This document shows, in pieces, positions 2,962-5,900 of a stretch of 64,000 bases of DNA (position 1 is the stretch's first letter; every line of letters begins with the position of its first letter). The position numbers were made by a program, and so were the translations under genes. Under the pieces are notes generated by a model. It made no database searches, was not told where the DNA came from, and saw only the letters and a list, made by a program, of their open reading frames with translations. Source of the stretch: Beroe forskalii (Eukaryota > Ctenophora > Nuda > Beroida > Beroidae); NCBI GenBank assembly GCA_011033025.1, contig WFMF01000493.1, forward strand, positions 60,881 through 124,880. Reading direction: 5' to 3'.

Positions 2962-5900
2962 GTAAGTGCACAGCTCATTGGGCATTCCGTAAATAACATT
3001 ATATCATTCGTTTTGAAGTTTTCTTAGTTCTTTATGAACTAGCTTACGCCGGCGCGCAATGCACCTTTGAGTGTATAGTACAGACCTTCTAGATAAACGG
3101 TATGTACTAAAAATAATAGGTAACTCAATTCATTGGTTTCCTGATTTATGAAACACACATCATTACTTTTTGTCAACGGATAGGCAAACACTGAACGGTG
3201 TCTAATAACATCAGTTGGACTATGTTTACACTACCAATTTGATTTTAAAGTAAGCAGCAAACATTGTGTTAATTCCTTAATCCGTTAGGGCCCCTTGAAT
3301 TACATCAGTCATGAGTAATTAGCTGGCCGTGGTATTGCAACGCCGCCAAATCATTAGTAGCTTTGAATGTGTTTTGCAAACAGCCCCTATGTTTGTTTAG
3401 GACATCAGTAGAAACCTCACACCAAAAACTCGCGACCCCCCTAGAAACTCTCTAACATTCGTTAATTCTATATGTAAACTATTTCGTTATTTTTATGAAT
3501 TTATAATTCATCAATCATACTCTCTTTTTCATTTTAGCGTTTTATAGAACCCTCTGACGTTTTCATCGGTTTGTAGGATATATAGACACTTGTATCGCCT
3601 GATCGGGTCCTTAGCGTACTACAATTGATAAGTGAACCCACTCTATTCTCAGTGTACTACACGCCAACCCACTCTATTCTCAGTGTAAGACACGTCACAC
3701 GCCAACCCACTCTATTCCCAGTGTACTACACGCCAACCCACTCTATTCCCAGTGTACTACACGCCAACCCACTCTATTCCCAGTGTACTACACGCCAACC
3801 CACTCTATTCCCAGTGTACTACACGCCAACCCACTCTATTCCCAGTGTACTACACGCCAACCCACTCTATTCCCAGTGTACTACACGCCATCCCACTCTA
3901 TTCCCAGTGTGATACACGCCAACCCACTCTATTCCCAGTGTACTACACGCCAACCCACTCTATTCCCAGTGTACTACACGCCAACCCACTCTATTCCCAC
4001 TTCCCAGTGTACTACACGCCATCCCACTCTATTCCCAGTGTACTACACACCAACCCACTCTATTCCCAGTGTACTACTCTATTCCCAGTGTACTACACGC
4101 CAACCCACTCTATTCCCAGTGTACTACACGCCAACCCACTCTATTCCCAGTGTACTACACGCCAACCCACTCTATTCCCAGTGTACTACACGCCAACCCA
4201 CTCTATTCCCAGTGTACTACACGCCAACCCACTCTATTCCCAGTGTACTACACACCAACCCACTCTATTCCCAGTGTACTACACGCCAACCCACTCTATT
4301 CCCAGTGTACTACACGCCAACCCACTCTATTCCCAGTGTACTACACGCCAACCCACTCTATTCCCAGTGTACTACGCCAACCCACTCTATTCCCAGTGTA
4401 CTACACGCCAACCCACTCTATTCCCAGTGTACTACACGCCAACCCACTCTATTCCCAGTGTACTACACGCCAACCCACTCTATTCCCAGTGTACTACACG
4501 CCATCCCACTCTATTCCCAGTGTACTACACGCCAACCCACTCTATTCCCAGTGTACTACACACCAACCCACTCTATTCCCAGTGTACTACACGCCAACCC
4601 ACTCTATTCCCAGTGTACTACACGCCAACCCACTCTATTCCCAGTGTACTACACGCCAACCCACTCTATTCCCAGTGTACTACACGCCAACCCACTCTAT
4701 TCCCAGTGTACTACACGCCAACCCACTCTATACCAAGTGTACTACACGCCAACCCACTCTATTCCCAGTGTACTACACGCCAACCCACTCTATTCCCAGT
4801 GTACTACACGCCAACCCACCCTATTTTCAGTGTGATACACGCCAACCCACTCTATTCCCAGTGTACTACACGCCAACCCACTCTATTCTCAGTGTGATAC
4901 ACGCCAACCCACTCTATTCCCAGTGTATTACACGCCAACCCACTCTATTCCCAGTGTACTACACGCCAACCCACTCTATTCCCAGTTTACTACACGCCAA
5001 CCCACTCTATTCCCAGTGTACTACACGCCAACCCACTCTATTCCCAGTGTACTACACGCCAACCCACTCTATTCCCAGTGTACTACACGCCAACCCACTC
5101 TATTCCCAGTGTACTACACGCCAACCCACTCTATTCCCAGTGTACTACACACCAACCCACTCTATTCCCAGTGTACTACACGCCAACCCACTCTATTCCC
5201 AGTGTACTACACGCCAACCCACTCTATTCCCAGTGTACTACACGCCAACCCACTCTATTCCCAGTGTACTACACGCCAACCCTCTCTATTCTCAGTGTAC
5301 TACACGCCAACTCACTCTATTCTCAGTGTACTACACGCCAACCCTCTCTATTCCCAGTGTACTACACGCCAATCCACTCTATTCCCAGTGTACTACACGC
5401 CAACCCACTCTATTCCCAGTGTACTACACACCAACCCACTCTATTCCCACTTCCCAGTGTACTACACACCAACCCACTCTATTCCCAGTGTACTACACAC
5501 CAACCCACTCTATTCCCAGTGTACTACACGCCGACCCACTCTATTCCCAGTGTACTACACGCCAACCCACTCAATTCCCAGTGTACTACACGCCAACCCA
5601 CTCTATTCCCAGTGAACTACACGCCAACCCACTCTATTCCCAGTGTACTACACGCCGACCCACTCTATTCCCAGTGTACTACACGCCAACCCACTCAATT
5701 CCCAGTGTACTACACGCCGACCCACTCTATTCTCAGTGTACTACACGCCAACCCACTCTATTCCCAGTGTACTACACGCCAACCCACTCTATTCCCAATG
5801 TACTACACGCCAACCCACGAGTGGGTGTCTGTGGAGGGGAGCAAGTGCAAAGTAGGGATCACTGACTACGCGCAGAGTGCTCTGGGTGACGTGGTGTACG

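Follow-up and report, generated by a model that had tools for sequence, protein, structure and literature searches.

The window analysed here is a stretch of 64,000 nt from the ctenophore Beroe forskalii (GCA_011033025.1, contig WFMF01000493.1, positions 60,881 to 124,880 of the forward strand). The mitochondrial contig of the assembly (C1134) agrees with this origin: it has 17.5% GC, ARAGORN found no tRNA in it, its listed reading frames of at least 90 amino acids are all on one strand, and genetic code 4 fits, with AGA at positions of conserved COX1 arginines and TGA within the COX1 match; B. forskalii mitogenomes have a mean GC of 17.3%, no conserved tRNAs and code 4 (PMC6991124). The window contains GCSH, the gene for the glycine cleavage H-protein, in which a 31-bp minisatellite covers the junction between intron 1 and exon 2. 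The anatomy of this element, its host gene and its nature as a splice-junction minisatellite of the 'mirage' type described in amphioxus are secure. Judged from sequence, there is a little under an even chance that the terminal acceptor has been lost and the use of an acceptor within the array is forced. The features on which this account depends are as follows (a slash marks a splice junction):

2895–2961, plus strand: GCSH coding exon 1, encoding 22 residues and the first base of the next codon; donor CAA/GTAAGT
3539–3613, plus strand: interspersed-repeat fragment in intron 1, ending 21 nt 5' of the array
3628, plus strand: candidate branch-point A in TTGAT (fits YTNAY), 23 nt 5' of the first array acceptor; a motif match only
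3635–5818, plus strand: 31-bp minisatellite of 70 units, each CTCTATTCCCAG/TGTACTACACGCCAACCCAC or a variant of it (acceptor plus exon start), delimited by Tandem Repeats Finder (TRF) and unit splitting
3635–3641, plus strand: left-hand AACCCAC of the 7-bp direct repeat that borders the ancestral segment
5704–5705, plus strand: nearest frame-keeping AG acceptor; three units (93 nt) included, predicted precursor of 176 amino acids
5797–5798, plus strand: the terminal unit carries AA instead of AG, so that the ancestral acceptor of exon 2 is lost
5799–5939, plus strand: GCSH exon 2 in its ancestral extent; donor GAAG/GTGGGT
5812–5818, plus strand: right-hand AACCCAC of the same direct repeat
17380–17511, plus strand: GCSH exon 3, with ESVKA
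18148–18245, plus strand: GCSH exon 4, with the stop codon

The joined four-exon frame encodes a complete glycine cleavage H-protein, matching Pfam GCV_H with an E-value of 3.8e-40 over profile positions 1–121 of 122 and its best PDB entry with an E-value of 2.2e-37; the ESVKA of exon 3 is what we take to be the lipoyl-lysine motif. The GCV_H match begins at residue 23, and of the 14 H-protein sequences matched in the PDB, 13 have alignments starting at query residue 22–25. Because these matches begin at the joint of exons 1 and 2, the array lies between the transit peptide and the H-protein core. The phase of exon 1 (A/TG) and exon 2 is the one in which the repeat unit spans the junction. GCSH was found at one place in the assembly using a gene query without exon 4, and exon 2 was likewise found at one place. 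Intron 2 of the gene harbours, on the minus strand, an uninterrupted open reading frame (ORF) of 803 amino acids (6662–9073), for which Pfam gave no match at E 0.001. The same intron contains a duplicated block (13736–14780 and 16390–17362), each copy of which carries 67-bp, 17-bp and CA arrays in the same order.

The earlier note on this DNA had described about 70 units of 31 bp at 3637–5817; the array and its 70 units are real, with edges at 3635 and 5818. Splitting at the acceptors gave 70 acceptor positions, and 64 of the 69 intervals between them are 31 nt long, the other five measuring 38, 38, 19, 29 and 38 nt. The consensus unit, TGTACTACACGCCAACCCACTCTATTCCCAG, is matched exactly by 35 of the 69 intervals, and there are 23 distinct unit types. 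As that note proposed, the array lies across the junction of intron 1 and exon 2 in GCSH: every unit comprises the end of the intron and the start of the exon of its host gene, so that the splice signals are present in many copies. The junction reads CAG/TG in 67 of the 70 units and AAG/TG, CAG/TT and CAA/TG in one each; AG is thus kept in 69 units, the exception being the unit next to exon 2. The statement that the unit has no stop in any frame is correct for the consensus, which is open in all three, but the actual array contains five stops over the three frames (2, 2 and 1), for example from units TGTGATAC. A single open frame (4898–5974) runs from the array through exon 2. When the 216-Mb assembly, larger than the 91 Mb reported for B. 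ovata (PMC11184263), was searched with a 62-nt array probe, scoring the best candidates alone and skipping very common words, the sole match was the GCSH array itself (one candidate region). The interspersed-repeat fragment upstream, by comparison, has at least 43 further matches at 79–85% identity (best 40 of 310 candidates scored). Rfam gave no matches across the window.

The authentic boundary is not intact, since the terminal unit adjoining exon 2 reads CAA/TG; with AA rather than AG at this position, a GT-AG product containing no repeat units is impossible from this sequence. All 89 AGs in 3560–5939 were therefore tried as acceptors for exon 1, and eight of them yield a complete H-protein: 4985, 5078, 5171, 5264, 5357, 5519, 5612 and 5705, which include 813, 720, 627, 534, 441, 279, 186 and 93 extra nt, respectively, and add from 31 to 271 residues. 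The two AGs nearest exon 2, at 5767 and 5736, lead to stops at codons 55 and 62, which lie 74 and 84 nt before the exon 2/exon 3 junction; by the usual junction-distance rule, assumed to apply in this animal, the corresponding mRNAs are probably targets of nonsense-mediated decay (NMD). The first AG of the array (3652) leads to a stop at codon 109 and a product without the H core. Frame shifts introduced by the units of 38, 29 and 19 nt restrict the rule that only multiples of three units keep the frame, proposed in the earlier note, to the last nine units; further upstream productive inserts are of 441 to 813 nt. Its range of 0 to 70 included units accordingly becomes, for productive mRNA, 3, 6 or 9 and then indel-shifted values, and its 70 or so near-identical acceptors become 69 AGs and a terminal AA. 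Two other ways around the missing site were considered and rejected. AGs within exon 2 (5852, 5855, 5912 and 5939) would keep the frame as replacement acceptors but would remove HEWVSVEG and more of the core; translation from the ATG formed by the terminal AA/TG is possible on paper, loses the transit peptide and has no support.

The shortest productive insert would add 31 residues with no acidic residue and one arginine, and over the whole array aspartate and glutamate together number three, one and four in the three frames (727–728 codons each). The strand is poor in G, and from this composition stops and acidic codons would be rare, so that included units would remain open and of a composition compatible with a presequence; an insert lacking acidic residues and carrying one arginine would not obviously spoil the transit peptide. 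In-frame choices would, as the earlier note proposed, place a repeat of 31 residues between the transit peptide and the core of the H-protein.

Arrays over splice junctions recur in this genome. They were sought in 200 kb of contig C1024 (20 stretches), chosen as long and present among the interspersed-repeat matches and hence not random. Tandem repeats make up 16.6% of this sample and 18.9% of the window; arrays with a period of at least 10 and at least five copies number 36 in the sample and seven in the window. With a period of at least 15 and at least 2.5 copies there are 65 arrays in the sample and 82 including the window. Three of the 65, one of them weak, cover coding splice junctions, a lower bound obtained from a screen of flanks and from inspection by eye. 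The first (L042:4260–4517) has a 32-bp unit in about eight copies and carries the acceptor CCTCCCCAG/GTACAAGTCG of a DNA primase small-subunit gene. Its terminal AG is intact and gives the junction DIYLR/YKSFSN, gap-free at the joint against primase chains (E 1.2e-28), while a Pfam search of the fragment gave no match; of seven AGs tested, three (the terminal one among them) keep the following exon open in the reading frame. The second (L026:8127–9889, minus strand), which the flank screen missed and which was recognised by eye, consists of 26 copies (TRF) of a 68-bp unit spanning the donor CAAG/GTAAGG, with 18 exact copies of CAAGGTAAG. Its gene is RB1CC1-like, with a match downstream of the donor at E 1.7e-14 over query residues 35–164 and one to Pfam ATG17_like at E 0.0029, below the cut-off of that family. 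The third, with 2.5 copies (TRF) of a 33-bp unit (L026:5971–6052, minus strand), covers a further donor, apparently of the same RB1CC1-like gene, and is the weaker case as nearly all of its exon falls outside the PDB match.

Two further loci were found by similarity to the primase array and stand outside any rate. In L045 (C866) both ends of one intron are amplified, with a donor array at 874–1393 (75 bp, 6.9 copies) and an acceptor array at 1502–2676 (26 bp, 45.7 copies; CCCCAG/GTAATG); the outermost donor joined to the last acceptor gives one open frame, HQFLHRP/VMGGPITSM, continuing to a stop. In L049:884–1941 (C617) units of about 29 bp, CCCCAG/GTAAAGTGATCAGTAA, form a long, related AG/GTAA array in which acceptor- and donor-like signals stand back to back. 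If splice sites are assumed to occur about once per kb, arrays with units near 35 bp would cover one by chance in a few per cent of cases. Set against three of 65, this estimate means that the recurrence needs no special targeting mechanism. Within the window itself, a 48-bp array of 20 copies (24235–25154) has a consensus with a possible acceptor, TCTAATTTCAG, and no coding flank was recognised beside it.

The GCSH array resembles the 'mirages' of amphioxus, minisatellite-like tandem copies of an intron/exon boundary on the donor or the acceptor side (PMC3087553), in that its tandem units each carry an exon/intron boundary of the host gene. Such arrays occur in amphioxus Adh3 and in the globin genes BflGb6 and BflGb9 (PMC3087553), to which an excerpt of PMC3902484 adds PGBD5, citing Adh and troponin C. 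Excerpts of PMC3087553 describe units of 10–72 bp and somatic instability for the Adh3 mirage. Adh3 data and reverse transcription PCR of the globins suggested that regular splicing is undisturbed (PMC3087553), and PMC3902484 also reports no disturbance. As to the idea that satellites rarely straddle a functional splice junction, such arrays have precedents in these amphioxus genes and are found at further genes of the present genome. GCSH differs from the amphioxus cases in belonging to a ctenophore rather than a cephalochordate and in its 70 units of 31 bp, where BflGb6 has six and three units of 150–160 bp in its two haplotypes. Its authentic boundary is not intact; for the amphioxus mirages regular splicing was inferred.

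Other systems share single aspects. The variable number of tandem repeats (VNTR) in intron 6 of human TERT, with 38-bp repeats, is like the GCSH array an intragenic minisatellite whose copies can pair in the pre-mRNA, and an excerpt of PMC3948165 attributes altered TERT splicing to such repeat pairing. The GCSH repeat, unlike that of TERT, contains the splice site itself. In NAGNAG and other tandem acceptors, competing 3' splice sites 3 nt apart, usually two, change the start of an exon; GCSH shares the competition before one exon but has 69 such sites, for the most part spaced at 31 nt. Splice signals are likewise multiplied by local duplication when introns are gained through proto-splice sites duplicated in tandem (Rogers, cited in PMC3087553), but no new intron is evident in GCSH, whose frame reads through four coding exons. 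Among the papers listed, the same phenomenon was recognised only in amphioxus (PMC3087553, PMC3902484), with TERT as a relative, and a precedent may have been missed. What is new relative to the amphioxus mirages is the ctenophore phylum, the length of the array, the lost terminal acceptor and the recurrence in the genome.

Because nearly every unit bears a usable-looking acceptor, the authentic terminal one would have been redundant and could be lost (AG to AA), and once it is lost the GCSH of this allele must be spliced from inside the array. H-protein would then be made only from acceptors in phase with exon 2, of which 5705 is the nearest, and an extension of 31 residues where the transit peptide meets the folded core would likely be tolerated; the remaining choices would shift the frame and probably direct the mRNA to NMD. 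The loss of AG is confined to the exon-proximal unit, as expected if upstream acceptors had relieved selection on it. Forced use of an array acceptor is also favoured by the single place found for GCSH, its intact domain, the eight AGs that are still productive, the phase in which the unit spans the junction, the position and composition of the shortest insert, the 7-bp direct repeat at the edges and the recurrence of the architecture.

Several observations weigh against it. YTNAY, the branch-point consensus used here, is matched at 3628 and again at 3602, 49 nt 5' of the first array acceptor (in the 62-nt stretch ending there); within the array it occurs in two variant units only and is absent from the consensus. 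Under the rule that the first AG after the branch point is used, the motifs upstream of the array would favour 3652. Considerations of exon size, in conflict with this, would favour proximal acceptors, as the last four AGs give exons of 172–265 nt. The two AGs nearest exon 2 are out of frame, and the pyrimidine tract of 5705 (CTCAATT) is slightly poorer, so that in-frame output could be low. AG shows one change in 128 cells, where about 2.5 would be expected from the 38 changes in 1984 cells across all positions of the 31-nt units (raw counts); selection on AG was considered on this basis and set aside, the counts being too small to tell. Finally, the primase array keeps its terminal AG, and the report that mirages do not interfere with regular splicing in amphioxus would favour the very terminal site that is missing here (PMC3087553).

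If scanning from the upstream branch point were decisive, 3652 would be used and this copy of GCSH would be non-functional. We regard this as very improbable: although a YTNAY lies 23 nt 5' of the AG at 3651–3652, the product would end before any H core, no other GCSH was found and the reading frame of the exons is intact. Embryos, reportedly those of the mouse, provide a further argument. GCSH is essential in them according to an excerpt of PMC7868403.

The AA at 5797–5798 may instead be an erroneous base, or an allele that is private and perhaps recessive, in which case 2961 would normally be joined to 5799 and the array removed with intron 1. This is a serious possibility, if one that we place below an even chance. 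Terminal splicing would give an H-protein of 145 amino acids from a 141-nt exon in perfect phase, the comparable primase array has both its terminal AG and a family-like junction, and GCSH is known from a single locus copy of one haplotype. Excerpts of the amphioxus papers, in reporting mirages as harmless to regular splicing, point the same way (PMC3087553, PMC3902484). Polishing within a tandem array, on the other hand, would be expected to pull the base towards the consensus G and not away from it, and a second copy with AG was not found in the assembly, in which GCSH exon 2 occupies one place and the primase and RB1CC1-like stretches one exact place each.

As to origin, the array is most likely a side effect of a genome rich in minisatellites. 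A minisatellite usually starts by slippage between two short direct repeats, and the array edges carry the 7-bp direct repeat AACCCAC, which fits birth from noncontiguous short repeats. The ancestor would have been a single-copy 31-bp junction segment with its period set by the two AACCCAC copies, consisting of 11–18 nt of intron and 13–20 nt of exon depending on where AACCCAC was cut. Slippage or unequal exchange between these copies could have duplicated it, with subsequent growth to 70 units. Multi-unit duplication blocks were examined as a record of unequal exchange and do not serve as one: the longest with at least two variants is of two units, a length reached in 508 of 2000 shuffles, so that none exceeds chance.

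Neighbouring units are predicted to pair through GTGTACTACAC, which is self-complementary save for its centre base, and a 311-nt stretch of the array folds at -52.6 kcal/mol (z -6.3; none of 100 shuffles as good). With the frameshifts that most acceptors produce, and with the effect of repeat pairing on TERT splicing described in an excerpt of PMC3948165, this might suggest that the array is a functional regulator, in which acceptor competition and unit pairing determine how much of the mRNA is productive and how much frameshifted, and copy number tunes the dose of GCSH. We think this improbable. In a control in which units were shuffled before being repeated in tandem, folding was at least as good in 20 of 500 cases with mononucleotide and in 31 of 500 with dinucleotide shuffling, so the pairing is only mildly unusual, and the units show no sign of selection. 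A regulatory RNA structure as the main function was rejected on the same marginal contrast.

A more far-reaching version of the forced-acceptor reading would hold that the satellite has become the 3' splice site of GCSH, with the ancestral acceptor fixed as AA, every H-protein carrying a repeat-encoded extension of at least 31 residues, the in-frame acceptors continually reset by repeat mutations, and junction minisatellites on donor and acceptor sides spread genome-wide in the lineage, making the transcripts of many genes heterogeneous; as a joint claim this is doubtful. The mirage phenomenon, found described only in amphioxus, is in any case carried to a ctenophore, to several genes and to a much longer array, and the locus would offer a natural experiment on the choice of the spliceosome among 69 near-identical acceptors with the proper one gone. 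If units do enter the mRNA, it would represent a direct route by which a minisatellite becomes new coding sequence, here next to a mitochondrial presequence and with the frame set by distance from the exon and not by total copy number.

Elsewhere in the window, a large inverted duplication (51884–60689) has arms of 918, 456 and 154 nt at 97–100% identity and includes part of a long ORF twice; the similarity of this ORF to C2H2 zinc fingers is weak and falls short of the Pfam cut-off. A 27-bp satellite based on GGAATTCCG...GCAGT extends over several kb (27432–34787), with long open frames on both strands, and a 33-bp in-frame coding repeat of 11 residues (40719–40858) lies within a minus-strand ORF of 1143 amino acids.
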